In this document: positions 16,164 through 50,577 of the stretch, one piece after another
Layout of the letters: every line of letters begins with the position of its first letter
Position numbering within the stretch: position 1 is the first letter of the stretch
NCBI GenBank assembly: GCA_019695335.1
Contig: JAIBAF010000007.1
Coordinates: forward strand, 1-64,000
Source: a bacterium
GTDB lineage: Bacteria; CLD3; SB21
DNA: 64,000 bases
Reading direction: 5' to 3'
Position numbers and translations under genes: made by a program
Notes under the pieces: model-generated
What the model was told of the DNA's origin: nothing
What the model saw: only the letters and a program-made list of their open reading frames with translations
Databases searched by the model: none

Positions 16164-17045
16164 ATGTCTGAAGAACTCCAACGAAGTATTTTACATACTT
16201 TGTCTTATTTTGATGTATTTCGCCATCCTCTGGCAAGCCGCGAAATTTTTGCAACTTTGCCGACCAATTCCGTCACTGAAACCGATGTGCAGTCAATGCT
16301 TGATACAATGGTTGGCATGGATCTTATTCAAGAACACGAACAATTTTACTTTTTACCCGGCCGTTCAGCGCATTTAATTCAGGAACGCAACAACCGGGAA
16401 GCGTTAGCCAAAATTCTGCAGAAACGTGCGCGTTGGGTTGCTCACTTATTTAAGCGTTTTCCGTTTGTTCGGGCCGTTTTCCTGACCGGAAGCCTCTCAA
16501 AAAATGTGGCGTACGAAAACTCAGACATTGATCTGCTGATCGTCACTGCACCGAGCCGAGTGTGGATTTGCCGAACGTTATTTACGATTTTTAAAAAACT
16601 CTTCCTCCTGAATTACAATAAATACTGCTGTTTTAATTTCATTATTTCTGAAAAAGCTTTGTCTATAGAGCAGCGTAATATATACACAGCTATTGAGACG
16701 TCAACCGTGATTCCTCTTTGGAATCAGGCAATCTTCCGACAGTTTAACGAAGCCAATCAGTGGATTTTCAACTTTTTACCTAATTGGCGTTTCGATGAGA
16801 ATCGTACACTGTTGATCTCATCAAGACAATCACTGTTTCAATGGTTCACAGAAAAATGTTTCTTAGTTTTACCGCTCGATCAAATCGACAAAAAGTTGAT
16901 GAATATGTGGCAGTTCATCTGGTCTAAACGGCATCCTGAATTATCCGAGGAAGAACGCAAACTGCGTTTCCAATGTCATCAGGATGTTTCAACGCGATGG
17001 GATATTAATTATTATGAAACGATTCGGAAACAAATAAACAATTAA
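16164..17045 (+). CDS. MNT-type nucleotidyltransferase domain protein
   Basis: The 293-aa protein opens with a winged-helix-like segment (residues 8-65, SYFDVFRHPLASREIF) and then a minimal nucleotidyltransferase domain. The signature is GS at 109-110 followed by Asp121 and Asp123 in SDIDLLIV, the pol-beta-fold metal-binding pair. A long helical C-terminal region follows. Such proteins transfer a nucleotide to a protein, RNA or small molecule; the target here is unknown. AAGGAA is well placed before the ATG. The next gene starts 1 nt after its stop. It is the first gene of the cluster and its position next to a B12-type radical SAM gene suggests a shared substrate. No HEPN partner is seen, so a toxin-antitoxin role is unlikely. 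Confidence 0.82.
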   Translation: MSEELQRSILHTLSYFDVFRHPLASREIFATLPTNSVTETDVQSMLDTMVGMDLIQEHEQFYFLPGRSAHLIQERNNREALAKILQKRARWVAHLFKRFPFVRAVFLTGSLSKNVAYENSDIDLLIVTAPSRVWICRTLFTIFKKLFLLNYNKYCCFNFIISEKALSIEQRNIYTAIETSTVIPLWNQAIFRQFNEANQWIFNFLPNWRFDENRTLLISSRQSLFQWFTEKCFLVLPLDQIDKKLMNMWQFIWSKRHPELSEEERKLRFQCHQDVSTRWDINYYETIRKQINN

Positions 17046-17046
17046 T

Positions 17047-18474
17047 ATGCGAATTCTCTTCAGTCAATCCTATTTTCGCATTTTCGATCCCAAAGAGATG
17101 CAACGGCAAATGCCGTATCCTCCGCTTGGTACTTTGATAGCGGCGACGCTGGCACGTAACCAGGGACATAATGTTCAATGCGTCGATGGAATGATGGCGT
17201 CTTCATTAGAAGCTTTTGACCGAAGCGTTGAAGAATTTCGCCCGGAGCTTGTGGTCATCTATGATGATGAATTCAATTATCTCACGAAAATGTGCTTATC
17301 AAACATGCGGCATGCGGCATTTCACATGATCCGGAAGGCTAAATCCCTGAAAGTGCCCGTCATTGTTTACAGTTCGGACGCAACCGATCATACTCCTATC
17401 TACTTGTTCGAAGGAAGCCATGCAATTATTGTTGGAGAAGGTGAAAATACTTTGATGGAAACGGTTGCAGCTTTTTCGAATGAGTGTTTTGAAACAGCCA
17501 AACATTCCATCAACGGTTTGAAATTTTTAGATAGCGGACAATTGCATGCAACGCCTAAGCGAGAATGGATCGATGACCTGGATTCACTCCCCGATCCTGA
17601 TCTGACCATGATCGATATCGCAGCCTATCACAAGCTCTGGCTGAAATATCACGGCTATTTTTCATTAAACATTTCGACAACTCGCGGTTGTCCCTACCAC
17701 TGCAATTGGTGCGCTAAGCCAATCTACGGTCAGATCTATCACACTCAATCGCCTGCCAAAACCGTACAACAATTGCTCAAGTTAAAAAATAATTATCATG
17801 CGGATCACGTGTGGATTACCGATGATATTTTTGGATTGAAACCAGGATGGCTCGAATTATTTGAATCCGAATGCAAAAAGCAAAATATTGTAGTCCCCTA
17901 TAAATGCCTCACCAGAGCTGACTTGCTCCTAAAAACTAATACTATTAATCATTTGAAAAACTCCGGCTGCCGAACGATTTGGATTGGCGCTGAATCCGGT
18001 TCACAAAAAATTCTGGATGCTATGGAAAAAGGTACACGGATAGAGCAGATTTACGAAGCAACGGATAAAGTACAAAAAGCCGGAATAGAAGTGGCTTTTT
18101 TCATTCAATTCGGCTACACCGGTGAAACATGGCCTGATATTCAACTGACCCGTAAAATGATCCGTGAATGTTTACCTGCTGAAATTGGCATTTCCGTATC
18201 GTATCCGTTGCCGGGAACGAAGTTTTATGAACGTGTCCGCGATCAACTCAGGCACAAGAGCAATTGGACAGATTCTGACGACCTTGACCTAATGTTCAAT
18301 AACACCTACGAGAAAGCTTTTTATAAAATTCTTCACCGGTTTGTACACGCAGAATACAGGCTGCATCGCATTATTAAGCAGAGGCAATGGAAAAAAATGC
18401 CCAGAGCAGTTTATCATTTTTTACGATTTTGCTTTTTTAAAATTCGTCTAATCCCTTACTATAAACATGCCTGA
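17047..18474 (+). CDS. B12-binding-domain radical SAM protein
   Basis: The 475-aa enzyme has an N-terminal Rossmann-like cobalamin-binding-type domain (residues 1-165, beginning MRILFSQSYFRIFD and with YPPLGTLIAATLARNQGH). It lacks the classical DxHxxG cobalt-ligand motif, as do many class B radical SAM methylases. The radical SAM core follows with Cys215, Cys219 and Cys222 (GCPYHCNWC) for the 4Fe-4S cluster and GAESGSQKILDAM downstream. A basic C-terminal helix bundle ends the protein. Likely chemistry is methylation of an unactivated carbon or another radical rearrangement on a glycan or lipid intermediate. It overlaps the next gene by 8 nt. Confidence 0.9.
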   Translation: MRILFSQSYFRIFDPKEMQRQMPYPPLGTLIAATLARNQGHNVQCVDGMMASSLEAFDRSVEEFRPELVVIYDDEFNYLTKMCLSNMRHAAFHMIRKAKSLKVPVIVYSSDATDHTPIYLFEGSHAIIVGEGENTLMETVAAFSNECFETAKHSINGLKFLDSGQLHATPKREWIDDLDSLPDPDLTMIDIAAYHKLWLKYHGYFSLNISTTRGCPYHCNWCAKPIYGQIYHTQSPAKTVQQLLKLKNNYHADHVWITDDIFGLKPGWLELFESECKKQNIVVPYKCLTRADLLLKTNTINHLKNSGCRTIWIGAESGSQKILDAMEKGTRIEQIYEATDKVQKAGIEVAFFIQFGYTGETWPDIQLTRKMIRECLPAEIGISVSYPLPGTKFYERVRDQLRHKSNWTDSDDLDLMFNNTYEKAFYKILHRFVHAEYRLHRIIKQRQWKKMPRAVYHFLRFCFFKIRLIPYYKHA

Positions 18475-19309
18475 CCCATCGATTGCAAATTTAGAGATCG
18501 ATTTTAAAACTGTCGCGGATGCTTTCACACGTCAATCGACCTATTTTGATGATTATGAAGTCCATAATCCCATTTTGCAATGGATGCGTAAGCAGGTATG
18601 GCAACATGTTGAATCATTTTTGAAACCGAACTCGCGAATCCTGGAACTCAACGCCGGTACTGGCATCGACGCCGTTCATTTTGCGCAACTGGGACATGTT
18701 GTTCATGCAACGGATATTTCCGAAGGGATGCTTCTGCAGCTAAGAAACAAAGTTCAACAGTATCAATTAGAAAAACAAATAACGTTCCAGCAGTGCTCAT
18801 TTACTGAACTTGATCAGATATCTCAACAGCCGTTTGATTATATTTTTTCAAATTTCGGCGGACTAAATTGCATCGATGATCTCAAAGTTGTTACTCAACA
18901 TTTGCCAAGGCTTTTAAGAACCGGTGGAATGGTGACCTGGGTCATCCTTCCCCGGATTTGTCCATGGGAAATGATGATGGTATTAAAAAATCATTTAAAA
19001 TTGGCCACGCGAAGATTCAAAAAAGGCGGCAGTTCAGCACATATTGAAGGCTTATACTTCAAATGTTTTTATCATTCACCGGCATCGGTTGTGCAAGCTT
19101 TCGGAAGAAACTTCGAATTAATCAAACTTCAAGGCTTAGCATCGTTGAGCCCACCGCCTTATTTAGACGATTTTGCCAAAAAATTTCCACGCGCCTATCG
19201 TTTGTTAACTTTATTAGATGAAAAAACATCTGCCTATTTTCCATTTAACCACTGTGCCGATCATTATATTTTAACAGTACATATTGCAACTAAATCAACA
19301 GTTCAATGA
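18467..19309 (+). CDS. Class I SAM-dependent methyltransferase
   Basis: This 280-aa predicted cytoplasmic methyltransferase has motif I as ILELNAGTGIDAVHFA, followed by the acidic motif II loop in VHATDIS and a post-I segment FDYIFSNFGGLNCIDD. The C-terminal 120 residues are variable and probably bind the substrate. It overlaps the radical SAM gene by 8 nt and the SGNH hydrolase gene by 4 nt (ATGA), so translation is coupled. By context it probably methylates a sugar, lipid or intermediate made by the cluster. A second, unrelated methyltransferase gene lies at 24195. Confidence 0.88.
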   Translation: MPDPSIANLEIDFKTVADAFTRQSTYFDDYEVHNPILQWMRKQVWQHVESFLKPNSRILELNAGTGIDAVHFAQLGHVVHATDISEGMLLQLRNKVQQYQLEKQITFQQCSFTELDQISQQPFDYIFSNFGGLNCIDDLKVVTQHLPRLLRTGGMVTWVILPRICPWEMMMVLKNHLKLATRRFKKGGSSAHIEGLYFKCFYHSPASVVQAFGRNFELIKLQGLASLSPPPYLDDFAKKFPRAYRLLTLLDEKTSAYFPFNHCADHYILTVHIATKSTVQ

Positions 19310-20433
19310 TCAAAAAATTCTTTTTTGTGATAATGGCTATCGTGTTATCGTTGACCCTTATTGAGATAGTCCTTCAGGCACTTGTAGTTATAAAACATGG
19401 TTGGGAGAATGGGCCGATAAACCCAAGAATTTATTTATCTCCTTACAAGGATAAAAGCTGGGCAAAATCTATGTTTAACGAAATTCGCGAAACAGAACTA
19501 GAATATCAGCCATATTTGGATTCACGCACCCGACCATTTCATGGTCAAAATATTAATATAGACAGCCTCGGTTTCAGAAAAACATGGAATGAATCTTTAT
19601 TTGAGGATACTTTATTGATTTTCGGAGGTTCAACTATTTGGGGATACGGTGCGCGTGATTCAAAAACAATTCCTTCTCTACTCTCCCAAAAAATAGTAAC
19701 AAAGGGATTCAAAATCACTACTCTTAATTGTGGTGAACAAAGCTATAATTTTACACAAGAAATAATAAGACTTATTTTTTTATTACGCGATGGGTACCGT
19801 CCAAAATATGTAATATTTTATGATGGGGCTAACGATGTTTTTCTCACTTATTATTATAATCAACCGGGCAAAACCGCTTTTACTCATCATTTTCAGGATT
19901 GGATTGATTTCAGAAAAAGGTCGTTTTTTTCTCAAATAGGCTTTATATCCTGGGAGTGGATTACTATGCACAGTAAAATATATAAAGGCATCTCTCTATT
20001 GCTAAATTTAGACGTTATCAAAAAAGATTCTTCTCCGTTTGACAGCATACAATTAACTGCGCTTGCACTATCTTATAAAGATTATTACAAAAAAAATTTC
20101 TTATTTCTCCAGCAACTATCGAAAGTTTATCAATTCAAATTGATTTGCTTTTGGCAACCTGTAATTCAAACAAAAAAGACTCTTACTGATGAAGAAAGAT
20201 TGGTTAAACAACCTGTTATGGACGATCCAGATGGCCAATTGTATCCAATGATTAATCAATTGATGACAACTGATTCTTCGCTTCATTTTTATAACATTAG
20301 TAATATATTTGACGAAAACCCTACAACCGTTTTTATTGACAATATCCATATCACCGAGGAGGGCAATCAAATAGTTGCCGATAAAATTTTTGAAATAATC
20401 TATCCAATTTTAAATAAAAATATTCACTACTAA
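19306..20433 (+). CDS. Membrane-anchored SGNH/GDSL-family hydrolase
   Basis: The 375-aa protein starts with a hydrophobic anchor (about 5-28) and then carries an SGNH hydrolase domain facing the periplasm. The nucleophile block is FGGSTIWGYGA (about 106-116), the oxyanion Asn is in YDGANDV, and the C-terminal catalytic Asp-x-x-His is in DNIHITEEGN. Family members add or remove acetyl or other acyl esters, often on polysaccharides. This fits a role in trimming or decorating the product of the surrounding glycosyltransferases. It shares one base with the ABC gene start (TAATG). From here the DNA is visibly more AT-rich than flanking housekeeping genes. Confidence 0.87.
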   Translation: MIKKFFFVIMAIVLSLTLIEIVLQALVVIKHGWENGPINPRIYLSPYKDKSWAKSMFNEIRETELEYQPYLDSRTRPFHGQNINIDSLGFRKTWNESLFEDTLLIFGGSTIWGYGARDSKTIPSLLSQKIVTKGFKITTLNCGEQSYNFTQEIIRLIFLLRDGYRPKYVIFYDGANDVFLTYYYNQPGKTAFTHHFQDWIDFRKRSFFSQIGFISWEWITMHSKIYKGISLLLNLDVIKKDSSPFDSIQLTALALSYKDYYKKNFLFLQQLSKVYQFKLICFWQPVIQTKKTLTDEERLVKQPVMDDPDGQLYPMINQLMTTDSSLHFYNISNIFDENPTTVFIDNIHITEEGNQIVADKIFEIIYPILNKNIHY

Positions 20434-22088
20434 TGAAGCCACCAACTCATACCCTCAATTACTGGCTTTTGAAAAATCTTGATATCAGTAATTCGGATTT
20501 ATTTAAAATATTCGGTTTGCTTTCATTTGTATCGATAGGCCATTTAAGTTATCCATGGTTATTAAAAATAATGGCTGATCGGTATTCAGTTGATTTTTAT
20601 GTTGGTGTTTCCATTAATGTCTTGATCGCATCAATGATTATATTGTTCTTTCTTTCTTCTGTATGCACACATTATTCGGAAAAACAATTATTTTTATGGG
20701 GAAATACACTCAGAAATTCAATCAGAATTCAGCTCTATCATACATTATTGAACAATTCTGTTAATTTTATTCGTCAGCAAAAAATAGGTGAGTTATCTGC
20801 TCGATGCAGTGAGGACTTAAGTCGAATTCAGTTGATTATCCCAGACATCATCGCCCCATTATACAGAAATGTTTTATTTGGTTCCGGATGTATCGTGTTT
20901 ATGATCACATTAAATGTCAAGGCAACGCTAACCGTTATATCATTCTCAGTTTTTATTTTGCCCTTGCTCTTTTTTCTAGCAAAACGCAATCAATTATTTG
21001 CGGCAAAAACACAGGACGACCATGCTGAAGCCAATGCGCTATTTGAAGAAACGTTGGTAGGGCTCCGAGAAGTCAAGGCGTTTGTCAGAGAAGATTTTGA
21101 GCTAAAACGATTTCAAAATTATCAATTTAAAGCACACACACATGAAACACATTCTTTCAATTATACAGCCTTGTTTAACCAAATAATTTACTTATGTGTA
21201 ACAGGATTATTACTATCCGTTTTTTATTTTACTTATCATGGAACGTTGTTTTCTTCAACTGGCGAAAGTATTGCTTTTTATATGTATTCCTATACTCTCG
21301 CAATGAGCGTGCTATCCTCGGCTAAATTGTTTTTTAATTTTAAAAAAATTGCCGCTCCAATTGAAAGAATTAAAAGATTGATCGATGATGTACCGCAGAA
21401 AATCACATCGAATAAAATTGAAAAGGAACTACTTGGAGCAATTCAGTTTGAAAACGTCAACTTTGGGTATAATAATAGACCTATAATAAAAAATCTTTCG
21501 GCTAATATTGATATAGGTGATTGTCTAATAATCAAGGGACCATCTGGCAGTGGGAAATCAACCATTGCCAACTTATTAATGGGTTTTTATTACCCACAGG
21601 AGGGGGCAATCATTTTCGATGATGTTTCATTACTGAATTGGGATTTATCGCGTCTGAGAGCACAAATAGGCTATGTAGGACAAGATCCTTATCTGTTTCG
21701 TGGTACATTAAGAGACAATATTTGTTTTGCAATCAAGCCTGTTTCAAAGCTTCGTCTTGAAGAAACGATCTTCAACTGTTGTTTGGAAGAGATGATTTCG
21801 CAAATGCCTGAAGGATTAGAAACTGGCATTAATGAAAGAGGACTGAACTTAAGCGGTGGACAAAGAGCGCGGATTGCAATTGCCAGAGCTATTTTACATG
21901 ACCCTCCGGTGCTTATTTTAGACGAAGCCAACAGCATGTTGGAAGATGGTCTCGAGAGTCGATTATGGAAGAACATATTTATTGATCGGAAACAAAAAAC
22001 AACTATTGTTATCAGTCACCATACTGAATGTATTTCTTCATTTAAAAACACTAAGCTTATAGATTTAAATGTATCAGTCACAGTTTGA
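20433..22088 (+). CDS. ABC exporter with fused membrane and ATPase domains (MsbA-like)
   Basis: The 551-aa half-transporter has a six-helix type IV exporter domain (about 20-310) and an ATP-binding domain (about 335-545). Walker A is GPSGSGKST near 369-377, the Q-loop is GYVGQDPYLF, the signature is LSGGQRARIAIARA and Walker B is VLILDEANSML. It would act as a homodimer in the inner membrane. In this context it likely flips the lipid-linked or small product of the cluster outward. Coupling is tight on both sides: one base shared with the upstream gene and 20 nt with the downstream gene. Confidence 0.94.
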   Translation: MKPPTHTLNYWLLKNLDISNSDLFKIFGLLSFVSIGHLSYPWLLKIMADRYSVDFYVGVSINVLIASMIILFFLSSVCTHYSEKQLFLWGNTLRNSIRIQLYHTLLNNSVNFIRQQKIGELSARCSEDLSRIQLIIPDIIAPLYRNVLFGSGCIVFMITLNVKATLTVISFSVFILPLLFFLAKRNQLFAAKTQDDHAEANALFEETLVGLREVKAFVREDFELKRFQNYQFKAHTHETHSFNYTALFNQIIYLCVTGLLLSVFYFTYHGTLFSSTGESIAFYMYSYTLAMSVLSSAKLFFNFKKIAAPIERIKRLIDDVPQKITSNKIEKELLGAIQFENVNFGYNNRPIIKNLSANIDIGDCLIIKGPSGSGKSTIANLLMGFYYPQEGAIIFDDVSLLNWDLSRLRAQIGYVGQDPYLFRGTLRDNICFAIKPVSKLRLEETIFNCCLEEMISQMPEGLETGINERGLNLSGGQRARIAIARAILHDPPVLILDEANSMLEDGLESRLWKNIFIDRKQKTTIVISHHTECISSFKNTKLIDLNVSVTV

Positions 22089-23118
22089 AGAATCTCAGTC
22101 CATCAATTCCTGGAATCGACAATCAGATCCAAAGCGCATTCTAATTATTCGCTTTCATGCTATTGGCGACGTTGCCATCACTTTCCCTTCATGTGCTGGC
22201 TTATCTACATTATTTCCGAATTGCGAAATCGATTTTTTGACTACAGAATCCTGCCGTACTTTAGTCGAAGTGCCATGTATGTTTACTCGCATTCATATTA
22301 TCCCTGACATCCATCATAGTACGATTAAACTATGGCAAACATTGTTTCAAATCCAAAAGTTACAAAAATATTCTTATGATATTGTTATTGATTTACAAAG
22401 GAACCGGTACTCACGCCTTATGCGTCGATATTTAAATCCCACCGCATGGGGGGAATTCGACAGGTTTTCACCAATTCCAGCCGGACTTCGCACTTTGTAT
22501 ACTTTTAGAAAAACTGGCCTGGCTGTCAACTTGGAGTTCTGCTGTCCTATCAAACCTGAAATAAAAACTAAAGCAACTCAAATCCTTTTTCAAAATGGAT
22601 GGAATGGTACAGATTTATTAATCGTTATTAATCCTGCCGGCCTATGGAAAACGAGAAATTGGCCGATAGAAAATTACGTGGAATTTATGCGATTGTTAGA
22701 ATCTTCTTTTCCGGTTACATTTTTATTTCTCGGAACTGAGCGAATAAAAAATAAAGTCGAATTTTTATCAAGCAATACCTCCTTCCGATCAATTAATTTA
22801 TTGACTAAAACGTCAATAGGAATGGCCTTCGCCATCCTTCAAGAAACTTCGGCAATGATCAGTGAAGATTCCGGATTAATGCACATGGCATGGATATCTG
22901 GAATTCCCACAATTGCACTTTTCGGTTCGAGCCGCCACGACTGGTCTACGCCTCTTGGGGCGCATTCGGTATGCTTACATTCCGGAGATTTAAAATGCGG
23001 ATCGTGTATGCAACCGGAGTGCTCTCTCGGTGATATTCAGTGTTTAAAACGCCGCTCTCCTGAAATAGTATTTAAAATCTTTTGTGAATTAACTAAAGCA
23101 AGAACCAACAAGGTATGA
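22069..23118 (+). CDS. Glycosyltransferase family 9 (heptosyltransferase-like)
   Basis: The 349-aa GT-B enzyme shows the GT9 pattern: RILIIRFHAIGDVAITFPSC near residue 24, YDIVIDLQ, and in the C-terminal half TFLFLGTE, then SEDSGLMHMAWISGIPTIAL and FGSSRHDWSTP. GT9 members transfer heptose or similar sugars from nucleotide donors to lipid A-core-type acceptors. The C-terminus has several cysteines (CGSCMQPEC), as is common in this family. The first 20 or so residues before the conserved core overlap the ABC gene. It suggests that the cluster builds an outer-membrane glycolipid or similar molecule. Confidence 0.9.
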   Translation: MYQSQFEESQSINSWNRQSDPKRILIIRFHAIGDVAITFPSCAGLSTLFPNCEIDFLTTESCRTLVEVPCMFTRIHIIPDIHHSTIKLWQTLFQIQKLQKYSYDIVIDLQRNRYSRLMRRYLNPTAWGEFDRFSPIPAGLRTLYTFRKTGLAVNLEFCCPIKPEIKTKATQILFQNGWNGTDLLIVINPAGLWKTRNWPIENYVEFMRLLESSFPVTFLFLGTERIKNKVEFLSSNTSFRSINLLTKTSIGMAFAILQETSAMISEDSGLMHMAWISGIPTIALFGSSRHDWSTPLGAHSVCLHSGDLKCGSCMQPECSLGDIQCLKRRSPEIVFKIFCELTKARTNKV

Positions 23119-24185
23119 CCAAAAAAAAATTAAATATTCTTTATTTGGTTCCAGGCTTTTCAAGTAGCGAATCTGTAACAAACTTCCTTCCATATTTGGA
23201 AGTTTATATAAAACATATGGCCATGCAACATTCGCATAATCGGTATTGTATACTTTCCTTCCACTATCCTTATCCATCTGGCATTTATTTGTGGAACAAT
23301 CTTAAAGTGTATTCGGCAGGTGGACGACAACGGAAACATATTTTTCGTATTCTGACATGGCTTCATGTTTTCTTTCTATTTTTCAAAATCCATTCAGAAG
23401 AAAAGGTCGATATTATACACAGCTTTTGGTTAACTGAGTGCACATTGATTGGCCAATATTTGTCCAATTTATTTGATATAAAACAAATTGCTTCTATAAT
23501 GGGACAAGATGTTTTGGAAAATAACCGTTATTTACGGCTTTTGAATTTCAAAAATACGATGCTAACAGCTTGTTCTGATTTTGCGGCATCAAAATTCTCA
23601 TTTACCAGACAAAAAAAAACAGATGCGGTCATACCATGGGGACTTGACCAAGGCTTATTTGAGTCTTATAGAAATGATCAACCACGGCAAATTGATATTA
23701 TAGGCATAGGCGCGTTGAGCACGGTTAAGAATTTCACCTTATTTATTGATATTTTGCATGAAATCACAAAAGAGCATCGCCATCTTAAAGCCGTAATCAT
23801 CGGTGAAGGTCATCAGCGCCCGCTCCTTGAAAAAAGGATAAGCGATCTTAAGCTTGAAGATACGATTTATTTGACTGGCCTTTTGTCCAGAACCAAAGTG
23901 ATCGAATATTTGTTTCAAAGTAAAATCCTTTTACATACGGCACAATTTGAAGGGATGGGATATGCGATAGCCGAAGCCTTGCATGCTGGCTTAAATGTTA
24001 TATCATTTGAAGTCGGACACAATTACCGAACCAGTAAGGCTGTCCGATGCCGTTCCGTTCCAGAAATTATTGATCAGCTGAAACGCTTGCTTGAAAGCCG
24101 TCTTGACTTCAATCCTGTTTCGACCTGTTCTGTTACAGATACCGTGACATCGTTTGAAAAAATCTATCAACAATTAAGTCAGTAG
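23115..24185 (+). CDS. Glycosyltransferase family 4-type (GT-B)
   Basis: The 356-aa protein has the two-domain GT-B layout. The C-terminal domain has the GT4 hallmarks: GALSTVKNFTLFID, AVIIGEGHQRPLLE, IYLTGLLSRTKV, and the donor-binding EGMGYAIAEALHAGLNVISF with the E-x7-E pattern. The donor sugar and acceptor are unknown. The ATG overlaps the upstream stop (ATGA). Nine consecutive A residues at 23121-23129, directly after the second codon, encode three lysines. A one-base change there would close the frame after about 15 codons, so expression could be sensitive to slippage. Confidence 0.9.
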   Translation: MTKKKLNILYLVPGFSSSESVTNFLPYLEVYIKHMAMQHSHNRYCILSFHYPYPSGIYLWNNLKVYSAGGRQRKHIFRILTWLHVFFLFFKIHSEEKVDIIHSFWLTECTLIGQYLSNLFDIKQIASIMGQDVLENNRYLRLLNFKNTMLTACSDFAASKFSFTRQKKTDAVIPWGLDQGLFESYRNDQPRQIDIIGIGALSTVKNFTLFIDILHEITKEHRHLKAVIIGEGHQRPLLEKRISDLKLEDTIYLTGLLSRTKVIEYLFQSKILLHTAQFEGMGYAIAEALHAGLNVISFEVGHNYRTSKAVRCRSVPEIIDQLKRLLESRLDFNPVSTCSVTDTVTSFEKIYQQLSQ

Positions 24186-24194
24186 CCATTTATT

Positions 24195-24833
24195 ATGTTT
24201 TCGAAATTTAAAATAGAGAGAGTTGACTCGCAGACAGGCTTTGATTTATTAGCACAAACCTATGATACCACATTAAATCCTGTTAGAGATTTATCCAATG
24301 AGATAGTAAAAAACTGGATGACGGATTTATATGGTAAACGATTGTTAGATTTAGGCTGTGGTACCGGCTACTTTTGTGAAATAGCCGAAAAAAAAGGCGC
24401 TCAAACAGTAATTGGCATTGACCATTCGGAAAAAATGATCTCTATCGCTCAAAAAAAACTTAAAACAACACAACTTATTTGTCAAAATTTAGAAACTACC
24501 CAATGGCCCGATCTAAAATTTGACTTAATCGTGTCAGCATTGGTTGTGGGATATATTTCAAATCTGAAAGACTTCTTTTCGAAGATTGCGCGAGTTTTAG
24601 AGAAAAAAGGCGTCTTTCTAATAACAGACTTTCATCCTTTCCAGATTCTTACCGGAGCTGAAAGATCTTTTTTGACACAATCAAAGAATCGAATCGAGAT
24701 TCATCATTTTTTACATATGATCGAAGACTATATCTCTGCCTGCAACACTAATAATTTCTATATCGCCGACATGAAAGAACTATTGTGGCAACAACAGCCT
24801 CTTGTTTTAGCACTACAACTGAAAAAATTATGA
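24195..24833 (+). CDS. Class I SAM-dependent methyltransferase (Methyltransf_11-like)
   Basis: The 212-aa protein carries motif I LLDLGCGTGYFCEIA, motif II IGIDHSEKMI and a post-motif FDLIVSALVVGYI region. It resembles small-molecule methyltransferases such as those acting on quinones or sugars. It starts 9 nt after the GT4 gene and overlaps the amidohydrolase start by 4 nt (ATGA). It is not closely similar to the other methyltransferase in the cluster (18467-19309): spacing of motifs and length differ, so the two probably act on different positions or intermediates. Confidence 0.88.
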   Translation: MFSKFKIERVDSQTGFDLLAQTYDTTLNPVRDLSNEIVKNWMTDLYGKRLLDLGCGTGYFCEIAEKKGAQTVIGIDHSEKMISIAQKKLKTTQLICQNLETTQWPDLKFDLIVSALVVGYISNLKDFFSKIARVLEKKGVFLITDFHPFQILTGAERSFLTQSKNRIEIHHFLHMIEDYISACNTNNFYIADMKELLWQQQPLVLALQLKKL

Positions 24834-26026
24834 AATTATTGTTAAAAAATCTCAGTTGGTTTAGCGAGAATATTGAAAGAGACGGCGATATACGAATTGA
24901 TAGAGGTTATATTACTGAAATTGGTAAGGGTTTAATTTCTAAAAAACGTGAAAATACAATCGATTATAGCGGACATTTCGTGTATCCGGGTCTTATCAAT
25001 GCCCATGATCACTTTGAATTTAACCTATATCCGATTCTTGGAACGCCTCCATATTCTAACTATGCTGAATGGTCAAAAGATATTCACAAAAAGAATGAGA
25101 GAACTATTCAAGCGATTCAATCTGTTCCCCTATACGATCGCTTAGTATGGAGCGCAATAAAAAATATAATTTCAGGTGTGACTTGTGTAATTCACCATAA
25201 TCCGTATTACAAGCATTTTCATAAGCAGTGGCCAAATACATTTCCTATCCGAGTTTTAAAAAATTACGCATGGCAACATTCATTGAACCTTCCTGAGCAA
25301 ACCGGCTCTACTTTTAGTGCTAAAAAACCTTTCATAATCCATGCCGCTGAAGGTACTGACAAATTCTGCCGTGATGAAATCTATCTCCTTGAATCGAGAG
25401 GTTGGCTGAAATCTAATACGGTTATAGTTCACGGCATTGCGCTAACTGATTCGCAAATTGACTTGATAAGCCAACGGAACGCAAGTTTAATTTGGTGTCC
25501 ATCATCAAATCTCAATATATATAAACAAACAGCCCCTATTATTTATATGAAAGATAAAATTAAAATTGCTTTAGGAACAGATTCAACTTTAACCGGTTCC
25601 CCAACATTACTGGATGAAATGAAAATAGCTCTAAATACTGGCTTGACCAGTGAAAAAGAACTCTTCGATATGGTAACACGTAATTGTATTCAAATTTTTC
25701 CTTCAATCATATTTAATGAAATGCACTGCGGTTCTCCTGCAGATTTATTTATTTTACCGGAAACATCCTCCTCTTACTATGCTAATTTAATGACTGCAAA
25801 TCCATCGAATATTCAGCTCGTACTTATTGGCGGTAATCCATGCTTAATTGACGATACGTGCATTTCACAATTTAACAAGGATGGCCCTAATGCTCTAATT
25901 TGGGGAAAAGCAAAATGGATGTCGGTTGATTTGCAAAGTTTAAAAAAGCGAATATCTAAAATTGTATCCGATTCGATTTTAAATCAAACCAATTTATGGC
26001 CGAAGATACAAGCATTGACAGTATGA
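24830..26026 (+). CDS. Metal-dependent amidohydrolase/deaminase (ATZ/TRZ-like)
   Basis: I start this 398-aa protein at the ATG at 24830, which overlaps the previous stop as ATGA; a TTG 45 nt upstream is also in frame. It has the amidohydrolase superfamily fold: an N-terminal beta sandwich, then HxH at His59 and His61 (LINAHDHFEF), a later HAAEG, VHGIAL and the metal-binding Asp in LGTDSTLTG. This pattern is closest to the cytosine deaminase/chlorohydrolase branch that deaminates or dehalogenates N-heterocycles or amidines. Finding it among glycosyltransferases is unusual. It may remove an amide or amidine group from a modified sugar or lipid intermediate. Function is inferred only from motifs and context. 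Confidence 0.85.
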   Translation: MKLLLKNLSWFSENIERDGDIRIDRGYITEIGKGLISKKRENTIDYSGHFVYPGLINAHDHFEFNLYPILGTPPYSNYAEWSKDIHKKNERTIQAIQSVPLYDRLVWSAIKNIISGVTCVIHHNPYYKHFHKQWPNTFPIRVLKNYAWQHSLNLPEQTGSTFSAKKPFIIHAAEGTDKFCRDEIYLLESRGWLKSNTVIVHGIALTDSQIDLISQRNASLIWCPSSNLNIYKQTAPIIYMKDKIKIALGTDSTLTGSPTLLDEMKIALNTGLTSEKELFDMVTRNCIQIFPSIIFNEMHCGSPADLFILPETSSSYYANLMTANPSNIQLVLIGGNPCLIDDTCISQFNKDGPNALIWGKAKWMSVDLQSLKKRISKIVSDSILNQTNLWPKIQALTV

Positions 26027-26997
26027 AAGTTAGTATTGTAATCCCTACACGAAATCGCTTGCAAAACCTGAAACGGCTTCTCCAGTCACTCTCATCGCAA
26101 ACTAATATTCACGAAGTAATTGTTGTTGATGCGAGTGACATAAAACTATCTCCGTCTGATATCGATGGTTTTCACCTTCCCATATGTATTTGTTACACGC
26201 AACCTTCTGTCTGCCATCAGCGTAATTTTGGCATTCAACGTTCCAAATCCGAATGGATACTACTTTGCGATGACGACATTGAATTGCCTAAGGATTATTT
26301 ACAAAGATTATCAATCTATGCATTAAAGAATAAAGAAGCTGTCCTCATCACAGGTTTGTTTTTGGAAAAAAACATTCATAATGAATGGAGTTACGAATAT
26401 CCGGTTTCTTTCAAAGGATTAATTTGGAATTTTATCTTTCAACTTCCATTATGGACAAATTTAAATAATATCCCGAAAGGATTTATCAAAAACTTTTATA
26501 CAAAACGGAGAAACACTTTCACTCTAGCCGGATGGCCATTAGTAACGGATTTTCAATACCCGTCATTTAAAACATCCATCTATAGTTTAGGCGCCGCGTT
26601 AGTGCAACGAAAAATTCTTTTACAGATTCCTTTTGACGAAATTTTGGATTCCAATGGAATCGGTGATAATTATGGCGTCGCTATTCAAATACCTCAAGAG
26701 CAGCCATTTCATATTTTAATGAATACCTATGTCTACCATCACAAAAGCCCGATTAACCGTTTGAATCGTCATATCTCTTATGGCCGAAGAATTTTGGCGC
26801 TGGATTATTTTATGCGAAAAAGTGGCCGTTTTTCTTATTTAAATTTTATGTTCTTACTATGGTCGATCGTTGGGAATTTTGTGAGACAAACTTTAACGTG
26901 GCAATGGAATTTAGCTTTTACAAGCGGAAAAATTTTCTTTCTTCTTCTCCTTAACAGAAATTCATACCGCATCCGTATAAAGACAGTAAATAAATAG
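26023..26997 (+). CDS. Glycosyltransferase family 2 (GT-A)
   Basis: This 324-aa inverting glycosyltransferase is started at 26023, where ATGA overlaps the amidohydrolase stop; an in-frame ATG 27 nt upstream would lengthen the overlap. The N-terminal nucleotide-sugar domain begins VSIVIPTRNRLQNLKRLL, with VVDAS and the metal-binding DDD in WILLCDDDIELP. A C-terminal hydrophobic segment (LNFMFLLWSIVGNFV) suggests membrane association. Sugar specificity is unknown. It is one of three glycosyltransferases of different families in the cluster. Confidence 0.9.
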   Translation: MKVSIVIPTRNRLQNLKRLLQSLSSQTNIHEVIVVDASDIKLSPSDIDGFHLPICICYTQPSVCHQRNFGIQRSKSEWILLCDDDIELPKDYLQRLSIYALKNKEAVLITGLFLEKNIHNEWSYEYPVSFKGLIWNFIFQLPLWTNLNNIPKGFIKNFYTKRRNTFTLAGWPLVTDFQYPSFKTSIYSLGAALVQRKILLQIPFDEILDSNGIGDNYGVAIQIPQEQPFHILMNTYVYHHKSPINRLNRHISYGRRILALDYFMRKSGRFSYLNFMFLLWSIVGNFVRQTLTWQWNLAFTSGKIFFLLLLNRNSYRIRIKTVNK

Positions 26998-27011
26998 TTG
27001 ACCAGCAGCCT

Positions 27012-28046
27012 ATGCTATCAAAAATCTCGAGTACATTTCTGCGTATTGTCAAACCAACAAATGATCGAATTGTTTCCCTTCCCATTGTCGTTCTTATGCC
27101 ACATAGCGCCTGCAATTGCCGATGCGTGATGTGTGACATCTGGAAAAATAATATTAATAAGTACGAGCTCGATACCGATCGTATTGGAAAAATTGTTAAC
27201 GATTTAAAAAAATTACGTACTCGTTTGGTTGTATTGTCCGGAGGTGAGGCTTTGCTTCATCCTAAAATATTCGATTTTTGTACAATCATCCGTAATGCCA
27301 GAATAAAAATCAGCTTGTTGTCCACCGGACTGCTCTTGGAGAGATTCTGTAATCAAATTATTACACATACCGATGATGTTATTATTTCTCTTGATGGCTC
27401 GGAAACTGTTCACAATCTCATTCGCCGTATTCCCGACGCTTTTCTTAAACTCAAAACGGGTGTCCAAAGTATTAAACAATTAAAACCTCATTTTCGCATT
27501 ACCGGACGATGCGTTATCCAAAAGAAGAACTTTAGAGATATTGAGAACATTATTGTGTCGGCGAAAAACATGGGCTTAGATCAAATTAGCTTTCTAGCCG
27601 CCGATACTTTTACATCGGCTTTCAATCACGATACCACAAGATTGCATATAAATGAAATTACCATTGACAAAAACGAATTACCTGAATTCCATCAAATCCT
27701 TAAAGATCTTTTTGTCAAATTCAAAATAGATTTTCAAAGCAAGTTTATTGTCGAATCCCCGAGTAAAATGATGCACATTTATCATCATTACGCTGCCGCC
27801 AATGATATCGGCAATTTTGAAGCACCCAGATGTAATGCACCATGGGTTTCGGCTGTCATTGAAGCGGACGGAAATGTACGGCCGTGTTTTTTTCACACCT
27901 CTTACGACACACTGTCCTCCGGAACGATTGAATCAATTATAAATGCCCCACAAGCCGTTCAGTTTAGAAAAAATTTAGACGTTAAGAAAAATGATATTTG
28001 CCGGCATTGTGTATGCTCATTGTATTTCAAACACCGTCTATTTTAA
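27012..28046 (+). CDS. Radical SAM/SPASM-type protein
   Basis: The 344-aa enzyme has an early radical SAM cluster motif, Cys34, Cys38 and Cys41 (ACNCRCVMC), followed by the SAM-binding LSGGEALLHP. The C-terminal region has further cysteines (RCNAPW, RPCFF, ICRHCVC) in the pattern of a SPASM or twitch auxiliary cluster domain. SPASM enzymes modify peptides or act as dehydrogenases and epimerases on small molecules. No precursor peptide gene was recognised next to it, so a sugar or lipid substrate is possible. It is the last gene of the cluster and ends 83 nt before the next gene. Confidence 0.88.
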   Translation: MLSKISSTFLRIVKPTNDRIVSLPIVVLMPHSACNCRCVMCDIWKNNINKYELDTDRIGKIVNDLKKLRTRLVVLSGGEALLHPKIFDFCTIIRNARIKISLLSTGLLLERFCNQIITHTDDVIISLDGSETVHNLIRRIPDAFLKLKTGVQSIKQLKPHFRITGRCVIQKKNFRDIENIIVSAKNMGLDQISFLAADTFTSAFNHDTTRLHINEITIDKNELPEFHQILKDLFVKFKIDFQSKFIVESPSKMMHIYHHYAAANDIGNFEAPRCNAPWVSAVIEADGNVRPCFFHTSYDTLSSGTIESIINAPQAVQFRKNLDVKKNDICRHCVCSLYFKHRLF

Positions 28047-32691: not shown

Positions 32692-33675
32692 GTGAAAGTT
32701 CTAGTTACAGGCGGTGCCGGGTATATTGGCTCTCATGCCTTACGGCGGTTGAAACAAGCCGGCCATCAAACGGTTGTTTTGGACAACCTTGTTTTCGGGC
32801 ACGCTGAATTTGTTTCACCGGATGAATTGATTATCGGTGATCTGTCGGATTCGGCGTTGCTTCAAAAAACTTTCAAGGAAAACCAATTTGATGCGGTCAT
32901 GCATTTCGCAGCATACGCCTATGTAGGTGAATCGGTTGAAAATCCTGCTAAATATTATCGCAATAATGTAGCGTCAACACTTCAGCTGCTCGAAACGATG
33001 GTTGCACACGGCATCAAACAATTTATTTTTTCTTCAACGTGCGCAACGTATGGTTTACCTAAATCCGTTCCGATTACTGAAGATCATCCGCAATCGCCAA
33101 TCAACCCATACGGCATGACAAAATGGATGGTTGAAAAAATATTAAAAGACTTTGATCATGCCTATGGATTAAAATCCGTATGCTTACGCTATTTTAATGC
33201 AGCCGGCGCCGATCCTGATGGAGGTATTGGCGAAGATCATTCTCCGGAAACTCATTTGATCCCGCTCGTTTTCGATACAGCATTGGGACGTCGGCCATAC
33301 ATAACCGTCTTTGGAACTGATTACCCTACTCCGGACGGTACATGCATTCGCGACTATATTCACGTCACGGATCTTGCCGATGCGCATGTGCTGGCCTTGA
33401 AATATTTATGCGATCATGGCCGCAGCGAAGCATTTAATCTCGGTAACGGTCATGGCTTTTCAGTCAAAGAAGTTATCCAAGCTTCTGAAAAAATTGTCGG
33501 ACATGATATCCCGGTAAAATTTGGAAACAGACGCGAAGGCGATCCTCCTGTTCTTATCGGCAGTGCCGATAAAGCAAAAACAATTTTAGGATGGCGTCCT
33601 CATTTCGCAGAATTATCTGTCATTATTGAAACTGCGTGGCATTGGCACCGTCTCCGATTTCAGAAAAATAATTGA
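32692..33675 (+). CDS. galE: UDP-glucose 4-epimerase
   Basis: This short-chain dehydrogenase-type epimerase of 327 aa interconverts UDP-glucose and UDP-galactose. It has the NAD-binding TGGAGYIGSH (6-15), the catalytic Ser-Thr region FSSTCATYG, YGMTKWMVE with the Tyr-x3-Lys pair, and YFNAAGAD. The start is a GTG at 32692 with no clear ribosome site. It could supply UDP-sugars to the glycosyltransferases of the 16-28 kb cluster, though it is not linked to that operon. Confidence 0.93.
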   Translation: MKVLVTGGAGYIGSHALRRLKQAGHQTVVLDNLVFGHAEFVSPDELIIGDLSDSALLQKTFKENQFDAVMHFAAYAYVGESVENPAKYYRNNVASTLQLLETMVAHGIKQFIFSSTCATYGLPKSVPITEDHPQSPINPYGMTKWMVEKILKDFDHAYGLKSVCLRYFNAAGADPDGGIGEDHSPETHLIPLVFDTALGRRPYITVFGTDYPTPDGTCIRDYIHVTDLADAHVLALKYLCDHGRSEAFNLGNGHGFSVKEVIQASEKIVGHDIPVKFGNRREGDPPVLIGSADKAKTILGWRPHFAELSVIIETAWHWHRLRFQKNN

Positions 33676-47758: not shown

Positions 47759-50545
47759 ATGGCGGCTGTAAGCAAAACAAAAAAAATCGTCGACTTCTAT
47801 TTGCCGGAATTGCTCAATCATTTCCGGAGCATGAGCGAACATCGTTTTTCTCCGATCAATTTCAGTATCATCAAAAAAATTATCCTGTCGGTTATCAATG
47901 CATCTGACCGGATGGAGCGCATTGATCAACTGAAAAATTCCCCTTCCCTCACTCCTTTCTTTCAATTCCTCCAGCAAATCCTGGAAATGGCTGAAAAAGA
48001 AGAAGTCAAAATCAGCCAGCTCATTGCCAATATTGAAAGTGATTCAGAAAAATTATACAACCTATTTACTCAAATCCTTCCGGCGCATGTTGATCTTAAT
48101 GCCATGGAGACGGAGCTGCAAACGATTGGCATTACGATTGACCTGAATTATCTCAAAAAAACATACCTGTCAAAAACCGAAGAAAAAGTAACAGTTGCTC
48201 CCAAGCCGGTTATTACAAAAACTGAAACTCCAAAACCGGCTAAAAAGCCAATTCCAACTGAATTTGGTAAAGTCGATGATATGATTGGGTTCCTAAATGC
48301 GCGCGGGAAAAAAACTTCCGAGAAAAAGGAACCGGTTCCTTTTGATGAAGTCATTGACATGACGGCAGCAGCGGTCAAACAAGTTTTCGGGAAAAAAGTC
48401 GCACCGAAAATCGATAACGAAACGATGATTGCATTCCGGGAAGAAGTATCGTCGTATTCCAAAATGATTGAAGACAGTTTGAGCCGGTTACGCCGCCAAA
48501 ACGATCGCTCGGCGCTCAGAGACATTCAGCAGTCCTCTCGCGCGCTCATTACGGCATCAAAACTGCTTAAATTCAAAGTGTTGACGGACACTTGTCAATC
48601 CATGATGACCGTATATACCGAAGCCATAGGAAAAGAATTGGCCGCAACGTCCGAACTTATTGATCTAACGGGCGAGACTATGCACGCATTAAAAACATTT
48701 GCTGAAACACAACAACTGACTGAAGAAAATTTCCTGGCTTTATCACGACAATTCTCGCAATTTAAATTTGGCTCCGCTGTTCCTACACCGTCTAAAGAAA
48801 TAGAAAAAACTCAGAGCGAAGTACAATCGAAAACTGAAGAAAAGCCGAAGGTCATAGAAAAAACCAAGACTGAAGAAAAACCTGTCGTCGCAGTAGAATC
48901 AAAATCGGATGAAAAACAGACCGCTGGGGATTTGTCATGGATGGACTCGATGCAAAACGTCATCAGTCAGAATTTTCCGAAAACATCAGCAATGACAACG
49001 GAAATTCCTGAACCGGTCAAAGAAACTCCTAAAATTGAAACGAAAGAAGAAGAACACGAAACTACCGTTAAGCTTGATTTACCGCCAGAAACCCCAAAGA
49101 CCGTCCCTATTGTACGAAAAAAACCGGCTACACCCACCGAACAAAACGTATTGGAGCCGGAAAAGCTTTTGGATATGATGGCCTCGCATGATCCGGACGT
49201 TGATTTGACACAGATGAAGATGCCGAGTTTTATTGAAAAAATGAGCGTTGAACCGGAAGATATTGTTGCTACGGCGGCGCCCAAAACTAAAAAGAAAAAA
49301 TCAGTAACAAAAACCGAAAAAACTGTAATCAAAGAGGCCCCGAAAGTTTCTGAGACACAGGAAATTAAAAAAGCCGAAAAAACGGAAGTTAAATCCCCAA
49401 TTCAATCAGAACCAACAGAATCAGATGGTTTGCTTCGTGAAATGTTTACAGAAATGGATGCTGAAATTCTTGAAATTTTTGAACAAGAAGCCGGCAGTTA
49501 TTTCAAAATGTTCGATAAATCCATTGAAAAGCTACGTACCAATCTTAAAGACGACAATGCAATCAAAGACCTCGAACGCGCCAGTCACAGTTTGAAAAGT
49601 TCGTCTCGTATGCTTGGCTTCGAAAAAATATCCGGACTCGCAGCATGTATCGAATTAATTACGGAAAGATTTTTCGAGAATGAAATTGTTCTCGATGCGT
49701 CGATGCTGCAACTTTTATATGACATTGTGATCGCACTCAAGCAGTTATTCAATCGCGCGGCGGTTGACGCATTGTCCATTGCCGAAAGGCTTGTTGCGTT
49801 GGAACGAACTTTATCAACACCGGATATTTTCATGCGCAATTTACCCAGTCTCAAAGCGGGTGCATCTAAACCGGTAACAGAAAAAGCTGTTAAAACCCCT
49901 GAGACTCCGATTCCCGAAAAAAATGAGGTCAAAGAAGTCAAAGAAGAAGATCAAGAATCTGGAAAAGATTATTTTGCATCGACCGGTGTCGATGAAGAGA
50001 TCGTTCAAATCTTCAAAGAAGAGGCCGGCACTTACATTAAATCGATCAGTAATGCAGTCGTGTCTTTGAATAAAGATATCAATAACCTGACTGTAATGCG
50101 TGATATTGAAAAATCGGCGCATAGTTTACGCAGTTCGGCGAAAATGCTCGGATTCCTGAAAATCAGCAATCTTGCCCGACCGATTGAAGTATTGGCCGAA
50201 CGAATTAATAAAGGAAAAGCACAAATCGACCCCGGAATGATTGCTTTATTCGATGAATCGTCTACAGTACTAAAAACCCTCGTCGCTGGCACGGACGTAC
50301 CCGTTGACGACGTACTGGATCGATTATCAGCTGCAGAAAAGCAACCTGTGAGTACTGCCGATAAGCCCATTAAAAAAGAAAGCGAGGCAGTTGTGAAAAG
50401 TAAAAAGATCAAAAAAGAGCCTAAGACTTCACCCAAAGCTTTCACCGATATCCAATTAGATTCCGACCCGATACTCAAACGGCTTGTAACGGGAGAAAAT
50501 GAATTGCTAAGCGAAATGGCTGAGTCCAGTCATTCGTTAAAATAG
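47759..50545 (+). CDS. Multi-HPt scaffold protein without histidine kinase domain
   Basis: The 928-aa protein carries three HPt-type helical bundles separated by long Lys/Glu/Pro/Thr-rich linkers. HPt 2 (about 565-675) has His610 in SHSLKSSSRMLGF, and HPt 3 (about 745-850) has His788 in AHSLRSSAKMLGF. HPt 1 (about 210-325) has the same fold pattern but Arg261 in place of the histidine (SSRALITASKLLKF). This resembles the N-terminal part of CheA/ChpA-type kinases, yet no ATPase or CheW domain follows. The ATG has no clear ribosome site. The upstream receiver protein is the likely partner. The protein ends ESSHSLK, itself similar to the phosphosite motif. Confidence 0.85.
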   Translation: MAAVSKTKKIVDFYLPELLNHFRSMSEHRFSPINFSIIKKIILSVINASDRMERIDQLKNSPSLTPFFQFLQQILEMAEKEEVKISQLIANIESDSEKLYNLFTQILPAHVDLNAMETELQTIGITIDLNYLKKTYLSKTEEKVTVAPKPVITKTETPKPAKKPIPTEFGKVDDMIGFLNARGKKTSEKKEPVPFDEVIDMTAAAVKQVFGKKVAPKIDNETMIAFREEVSSYSKMIEDSLSRLRRQNDRSALRDIQQSSRALITASKLLKFKVLTDTCQSMMTVYTEAIGKELAATSELIDLTGETMHALKTFAETQQLTEENFLALSRQFSQFKFGSAVPTPSKEIEKTQSEVQSKTEEKPKVIEKTKTEEKPVVAVESKSDEKQTAGDLSWMDSMQNVISQNFPKTSAMTTEIPEPVKETPKIETKEEEHETTVKLDLPPETPKTVPIVRKKPATPTEQNVLEPEKLLDMMASHDPDVDLTQMKMPSFIEKMSVEPEDIVATAAPKTKKKKSVTKTEKTVIKEAPKVSETQEIKKAEKTEVKSPIQSEPTESDGLLREMFTEMDAEILEIFEQEAGSYFKMFDKSIEKLRTNLKDDNAIKDLERASHSLKSSSRMLGFEKISGLAACIELITERFFENEIVLDASMLQLLYDIVIALKQLFNRAAVDALSIAERLVALERTLSTPDIFMRNLPSLKAGASKPVTEKAVKTPETPIPEKNEVKEVKEEDQESGKDYFASTGVDEEIVQIFKEEAGTYIKSISNAVVSLNKDINNLTVMRDIEKSAHSLRSSAKMLGFLKISNLARPIEVLAERINKGKAQIDPGMIALFDESSTVLKTLVAGTDVPVDDVLDRLSAAEKQPVSTADKPIKKESEAVVKSKKIKKEPKTSPKAFTDIQLDSDPILKRLVTGENELLSEMAESSHSLK

Positions 50546-50577
50546 ATATATTCGATACACTAACCAAGGGGCCACGC

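Follow-up and report, generated by a model that had tools for sequence, protein, structure and literature searches.

A putative surface-glycan operon with a recurring nucleotidyltransferase and cobalamin-type radical SAM core

Eleven open reading frames (ORFs) span positions 16164-28046 of a 64,000-nucleotide stretch of bacterial DNA (GTDB lineage Bacteria; CLD3; SB21; contig JAIBAF010000007.1 of GenBank assembly GCA_019695335.1, positions 1 to 64,000), which we refer to as the window. On balance, we favor the interpretation that these genes form a single operon whose product is an oligosaccharide or glycolipid of the cell surface, with radical chemistry that would edit one of its sugars or the lipid head. 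We infer the product class, the order of the steps, and the substrate of each enzyme, with moderate confidence in the product class and low confidence in the exact chemistry. What is new here is that a surface-glycan-type locus of known kind appears to contain an undescribed radical-enzyme core, consisting of a nucleotidyltransferase (NT), a cobalamin-binding-type radical S-adenosylmethionine (SAM) enzyme (B12-A), and a class I SAM methyltransferase (MT1). An unusual, radically modified, and exported glycoconjugate had already been proposed in a preliminary description of this DNA; it remains the best-supported reading, with the correction that the eleven genes do not make up a single fixed set.

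A conserved core among exchangeable genes

Scanning GTDB genomes with B12-A, we obtained 80 loci (L048-L127), with identities of about 46–60% outside the genus; judging by the record titles, 56 of these are from Chloroflexota, and the rest are from Acidobacteriota, Bacteroidota/Ignavibacteria, KSB1, and, in one case, Gemmatimonadota. By profile search, 52 of 72 testable loci, in at least five phyla, have NT immediately upstream of B12-A, and MT1 lies no more than three genes downstream in 44 of the 72. The pairwise identities of NT and B12-A are correlated across 54 loci (r = 0.84; best of 500 permutations, 0.30); this correlation is inflated by host relatedness and supports joint inheritance, short of proof.

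In a sample of 386 genomes, taken from relatives and from the rest of the domain, NT is present in 12 and B12-A or its close paralog B in nine (matches above 350 bits), with both present in seven. The SPASM-type radical SAM family represented by the last gene of the cluster occurs in four of the 386 genomes, all of which carry NT and B12-A. Similarly, the five genomes with the best matches to the cluster's amidohydrolase (AH) are all B12-A genomes in which AH shares a contig with other cluster genes, while five weaker matches that we inspected are genes in unrelated contexts. AH is not unique to these clusters, as stand-alone amidohydrolases of about 30% identity are present elsewhere and the cluster-linked proteins are only the top-scoring subgroup.

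Recurring additions to the core include a pair of further B12 radical enzymes with about 31% and about 24% identity to B12-A, another methyltransferase family, the SPASM enzyme, AH together with a second class I SAM methyltransferase (MT2), Wzx, Wzy_C, glycosyltransferases of the GT2, GT39, and GT4 families, and a PNP-type phosphorylase. MT2 relatives are paired with AH in seven of eight clusters, and AH recurs in the fuller cluster versions. The fullest of these (L059:3424-19100 and L087:7980-17034) contain NT, SPASM, three B12-type radical SAM enzymes, MT1, MT2, and AH, and both are followed by a Wzx flippase gene. The phosphorylase (PNP_UDP_1) was found in 23 of the 80 loci, mostly from Anaerolineae, and these clusters share no locus with the 25 that contain a further B12 enzyme, B12-C, or with the eight that contain AH; the mutual exclusion of AH and the phosphorylase is suggestive and tied to lineage.

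The recurrence of these parts across phyla makes the grouping more than chance. Scattering of the genes in related genomes, and a known pathway with exactly this gene set, were the two outcomes that the preliminary description had named as speaking against it. Instead, in many phyla members of the set stay clustered, and a literature search limited to open-licence papers turned up no described pathway containing either the set or its core; nor did named families or PDB entries include anything close to the core. The cluster combines a conserved and a variable part, the recurring units being the NT–B12-A–MT1 core and, separately, the MT2–AH pair and the SPASM enzyme.

In a sister species (G001), the same site holds queG followed by NT (76% identity), B12-A (84%), and MT1 (78%) on one contig. 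A second contig holds GT2 (59%), SPASM (76%), and MnmL (89%), and a third, short one holds the ABC exporter (43%) and an adjoining GT9 (51%), together with an oppositely oriented gene that is weakly GT4-like. The assembly is broken, so that these three contigs are not joined, and AH was not found in it. Judged from these sequences, the ends appear conserved and the middle different, which is the pattern of surface-glycan loci. In a species of another genus (G003), the cluster lies at a different site, next to leuS, and comprises NT, B12-A (56%), MT1, a distant GT9, GT87, a protein of 411 amino acids, B12-C, MT2, AH, and SPASM. Therefore, ends and core persist in these two genomes while the glycosyltransferases and exporter change. 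The 411-residue protein of G003 (L016:15716-16951, reverse strand) has no Pfam or NCBIfam match. No B12-C ortholog was found elsewhere in the genome from which the window derives (best match 77 bits).

Enzymes of the conserved part

In the AlphaFold2 model of NT (293 residues; predicted local distance difference test score 91.7), a winged helix is followed by a Pol-beta-type nucleotidyltransferase domain and then by helices. The label "MNT-type" given in the preliminary description therefore suits the catalytic domain and falls short of the larger protein. The active-site motif in the window protein is GSLS...DID, and both aspartates of the DxD pair are invariant in 28 relatives, which makes catalysis likely. 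No PDB structure matched the model at E ≤ 0.001; partial Foldseek matches include MNT antitoxins, HalB, and AadA. An HEPN/MNT toxin–antitoxin role was rejected, since a 293-residue protein with a winged helix is too large and no HEPN gene is adjacent. In at least six loci from Ignavibacteria/Bacteroidota-type genomes, NT is fused behind (C-terminal to) a GT4-type glycosyltransferase (Table 1), a part identified by domain search in L049 and by sequence family and length in the other five. These fusions tie NT directly to glycan synthesis.

B12-A contains both a B12-type Rossmann domain and a CxxxCxxC motif that is invariant in 11 relatives from several phyla (46–83% identity) and is also kept in the SPASM enzyme. 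Cobalamin binding is predicted, with a PF02310 match of 23.9 bits that is under the curated cut-off of 32.1. In the SPASM enzyme, the core cysteines 34, 38, and 41 and five further cysteines (eight in all) are invariant in nine sequences, and so is the metal-binding and catalytic set of AH (H74, H76, H186, E189, H216, and D266), which is of the TRZ/ATZ type. The nearest PDB structures to AH are 8-oxoguanine deaminase and the methylthioadenosine/S-adenosylhomocysteine deaminases.

None of NT, B12-A, the SPASM enzyme, and AH reaches the curated cut-off of an NCBIfam subfamily. For B12-A, the top named subfamily is BchE (117.9 bits; cut-off 481), and membership in the hopanoid, BchE, PhpK, or AprD4 subfamilies was rejected, all scores being far under the cut-offs. 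For the SPASM enzyme, the best score among the named subfamilies (BlsE, NirJ, PapB, and others) is 68.7 bits (cut-off 380). By structure, the closest solved radical enzymes whose small substrates are known both act on sugars: the apramycin radical diol dehydratase AprD4 for B12-A and the cytosylglucuronate decarboxylase BlsE for the SPASM enzyme, the latter being its closest solved structure (PDB, 4e-20). B12-A has the same fold as AprD4, but its score against the model for AprD4 is only 49 bits (cut-off 500); likewise, the BlsE model gives the SPASM enzyme 52 bits (cut-off 400), and the cluster contains no cytosine-nucleoside genes.

Proposed pathway

As in Wzx/Wzy- or ABC-dependent glycan loci (O-antigen, capsule, and exopolysaccharide), the cluster has several glycosyltransferase genes in series in one operon, a flippase-type ABC exporter, an AT-rich composition, and conserved ends with a variable middle. 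Among relatives, Wzx, Wzy_C, GT39, GT87, GT2, and GT4 genes lie beside the core, and the exporter and glycosyltransferase genes are exchanged (ABC, Wzx, Wzy_C, GT39, GT87, and GT4); the SGNH hydrolase, ABC exporter, and glycosyltransferases are local, exchangeable cargo. In contrast to such loci, the cluster adds the conserved NT and cobalamin radical SAM core, SPASM, and AH, and lacks sugar-nucleotide genes, a priming transferase, and a polymerase. Because no polymerase, ligase, or priming transferase is found among the 11 ORFs, we consider that the cluster works like a glycan locus without being a standard member of that class.

Since Wzx, ABC, Wzy_C, GT39, and GT87 genes swap around a fixed core, NT is fused to GT4, and the middle is variable, we interpret the product as a flipped lipid-linked glycan; on that interpretation, the fixed core would be the maker of an unusual group. 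On the inner side of the membrane, GT9, GT4, and GT2 would build a short glycan, which the PglK/MsbA-like ABC protein would flip outward. Before or during assembly, the conserved radical module may edit one sugar (or the lipid head): NT would probably place a nucleotide on the substrate or its carrier, B12-A would carry out a cobalamin- and SAM-dependent radical step, such as C-methylation or deoxygenation, and the SPASM enzyme may add a second one of the BlsE/BtrN kind (sugar decarboxylation or dehydrogenation). MT1 and MT2 would add O- or N-methyl groups, and AH may strip the product, or an adenosine-type intermediate, of an amino or similar group. The SGNH protein, predicted to be membrane-anchored, probably trims or transfers acyl groups outside the cell; its sequence shows the GGST, GAND, and DxxH blocks. 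The 25 best NCBIfam matches of the exporter are all under their respective cut-offs, as is that of GT9 to heptsyl_trn_II (92 bits; cut-off 134.6).

A parallel to this pairing of NT with a B12 radical enzyme is fosfomycin synthesis, in which 2-hydroxyethylphosphonate is first converted to a cytidine monophosphate conjugate by Fom1 and the conjugate is then methylated by Fom3, a B12 radical enzyme (PMC8158854). Our sugar may, by hypothesis, also be edited while nucleotidylated. The pairing of nucleotidyl transfer with a B12 radical SAM enzyme is common to both, seen here as a pairing of genes alone; however, the cluster has a glycosyltransferase context and no phosphonate genes or FomD, and NT, with its Pol-beta-type fold, may be unrelated to Fom1. 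The clusters also recall futalosine and hopanoid synthesis, in which an adenosyl-transferring radical enzyme is followed by a deaminase or nucleosidase, in that AH occurs in some of them and a PNP-type phosphorylase in others. These two enzymes might act on an intermediate of the adenosine type or on 5'-deoxyadenosine formed as a by-product. However, neither the aminofutalosine deaminase model nor the HpnG model is close to the sequences, and the cluster contains no MqnE or HpnH ortholog.

Some observations weigh against this reading. Although Wzy_C is found in relatives, the missing priming enzyme, polymerase, and ligase leave the 11 ORFs short of a complete lipid-linked glycan pathway. B12-A is about equally near in fold to MgmA, OxsB, and TsrM (Foldseek, E of about 2e-17 or better) as to AprD4, so that the case for its acting on a sugar is weak. 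The motif serine of NT is replaced by alanine, glycine, or aspartate in several of the 28 relatives, and nucleotidyl transfer is therefore not assured. In Acidobacteriota, NT adjoins B12-A in just one of six testable loci. Finally, in a class relative (G008), NT, B12-A, B12-B, and B12-C lie on four separate contigs (C25, C32, C41, and C50; L168, L167, L018, and L170), and clustering is therefore usual rather than obligatory.

A wider proposition, which we advance only tentatively, is that the core represents a widespread, undescribed sugar-editing pathway, in which NT would tag a glycan or glycolipid building block and its partner B12 radical SAM enzyme would recognize the tagged substrate; fuller versions would continue with as many as two additional B12 radical enzymes, SPASM, and the deaminase. 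This would be surface-sugar chemistry not yet seen in Chloroflexota, Acidobacteriota, or Ignavibacteria.

Alternative explanations

The strongest competitor, which we nonetheless regard as rather improbable, is a secreted small molecule of the aminoglycoside or nucleoside type, in which the glycosyltransferases would join sugars and the radical enzymes, like AprD4, GenK, and BlsE, would deoxygenate, decarboxylate, or methylate them. Export of the product would fall to the ABC protein, and NT, in the manner of AadA, would inactivate the product for self-protection. Consistent with this alternative would be the nucleoside-deaminase-like character of AH, the presence of AadA streptomycin adenylyltransferase among the partial matches of NT, and the fact that, of the named solved relatives that modify sugars, AprD4 and BlsE come closest. 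However, the AadA matches span about 90 residues with E above 0.05, the cluster contains no cyclitol- or scaffold-forming enzyme, in relatives the core is accompanied by adjacent Wzx, Wzy_C, GT39, or GT87 genes, and the fusion of NT to GT4 and its co-evolution with B12-A are more in keeping with a role in the pathway than with a resistance gene.

It is unlikely that the cluster is an ordinary variable surface-polysaccharide locus with incidental modifying enzymes, the radical enzymes sharing no pathway. While the AT-rich, variable middle and exchangeable glycosyltransferases fit this explanation, it does not account for a core kept across phyla with correlated divergence, or for a SPASM family seen solely alongside NT and B12-A in the 386-genome sample.

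Less likely still is a membrane-lipid modification of the hopanoid, ladderane, or tetraether kind, in which the radical enzymes would act on a lipid chain or an adenosylated lipid and the sugars would form the head group. The nearest NCBIfam models for B12-A do include BchE, HpnJ, the ladderane enzyme, and HpnR, and the phosphorylase found in the clusters of 23 relatives belongs to the HpnG superfamily; however, all of those B12-A scores are far under the cut-offs (HpnJ, 112 against 577.6 bits), no lipid-chain enzyme is encoded in the cluster, and the SPASM enzyme reaches 37 bits on the HpnH model (cut-off 225), its nearest solved relative being BlsE. Radical modification of a ribosomal peptide is very improbable: SPASM and B12 radical SAM enzymes are common as peptide maturases, but gaps of at most 14 bp leave no space for a precursor gene, and the SPASM protein, nearest to BlsE, exceeds the cut-off of no peptide-maturase model.

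Cluster organization and surroundings

As the preliminary description had reported, the 11 genes lie on one strand and mostly overlap (Table 1); the spacings between neighbors, in gene order, are +1, -8, -4, -1, -20, -4, +9, -49, -31, and +14 bp. Pfam searches likewise confirmed every family it had named. Two of the listed starts, those of the amidohydrolase and GT2, are probably too early, as starting instead at in-frame ATGs at about 24830 and 26023 would make each of the two overlap the preceding gene by 4 bp (ATGA).

Table 1. Genes of the cluster and NT fusions in other genomes
Feature	Position	Strand	Matches and remarks
NT, winged-helix and nucleotidyltransferase protein (core gene 1)	16164..17045	+	PF01909 (NTP_transf_2), 26.9 bits (cut-off 21)
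B12-A, cobalamin-binding-type radical SAM enzyme (core gene 2)	17047..18474	+	PF04055 (Radical_SAM), PF02310 (B12-binding)
MT1, class I SAM methyltransferase (core gene 3)	18467..19309	+	PF13649 (Methyltransf_25)
SGNH/GDSL hydrolase, N-terminal membrane segment (local cargo)	19306..20433	+	PF00657 (Lipase_GDSL); PDB CgnD, 4e-10
ABC exporter, permease and ATPase, MsbA/PglK-like (local cargo)	20433..22088	+	PF00664 (ABC_membrane), PF00005 (ABC_tran)
GT9, heptosyltransferase-like glycosyltransferase	22069..23118	+	PF01075
GT4 glycosyltransferase	23115..24185	+	PF00534; related genes (family F19) present in other clusters
MT2, class I SAM methyltransferase	24195..24833	+	PF08241 (Methyltransf_11)
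AH, amidohydrolase, deaminase-like, TRZ/ATZ type	24785..26026 (probable start ~24830)	+	PF01979 (Amidohydro_1)
GT2 glycosyltransferase	25996..26997 (probable start ~26023)	+	PF00535
SPASM-type radical SAM enzyme	27012..28046	+	PF04055 (Radical_SAM), PF13186 (SPASM)
GT4-NT fusion	L049:7992-9974		
GT4-NT fusion	L050:235-2229		
GT4-NT fusion	L051:6650-8740		
GT4-NT fusion	L052:5234-7195		
GT4-NT fusion	L055:8024-9985		
GT4-NT fusion	L162:6034-8112		

The cluster has a GC content of 37.2%, compared with a mean of 44.2% (standard deviation 2.8) for the other genes of the window; NT and B12-A (40–42%) are nearer to the background, and the middle genes are lowest (33–39%). Around the cluster, just short, low-identity repeats were found in the search for repeats and mobile-element ends, and promoters and terminators did not exceed chance expectation. 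In agreement with the preliminary description, the 11 ORFs include no sugar-nucleotide genes, no Wzx or Wzy, and no regulators. A GalE-like (UDP-sugar epimerase-like) gene at 32692-33675 of the window, 4.6 kb downstream, is a possible source of sugar nucleotides.

Housekeeping genes flank the cluster on both sides: QueG, a YbjN-like protein, and a thioesterase on the opposite strand upstream, and MnmL/YtqA, a baeRF10 protein, and a DUF5777 protein downstream. These flanking groups remain together elsewhere in the family where the cluster is absent. The radical SAM gene at 28130 was rejected as a cluster member, as it encodes the tRNA enzyme MnmL/YtqA (334 bits; cut-off 180) and travels with the baeRF10 gene in G003 and in another genome (G004). 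Farther away, positions 47759-52128 show a strong AT skew (about +0.22) across genes for a 928-residue Hpt-domain protein and a beta-helix/TonB_C protein, with a response-regulator gene adjoining, and positions 606-2306 encode a protein with FHA, GAF, and adenylate/guanylate cyclase domains.

Implications

Radical SAM enzymes that act on sugars are mainly familiar from antibiotics. Here, glycan-type loci from phyla with few cultured members repeatedly contain a conserved core of NT, a B12 radical SAM enzyme, and a methyltransferase, joined in larger clusters by the SPASM enzyme, the deaminase, and additional B12 radical enzymes that bring their number to as many as three. If our reading is correct, abundant environmental bacteria would possess an unknown surface-sugar chemistry, for which the cluster would provide concrete enzymes and substrates to assay, and it would bear on whether nucleotidylation marks the substrates of B12 radical enzymes outside fosfomycin synthesis.

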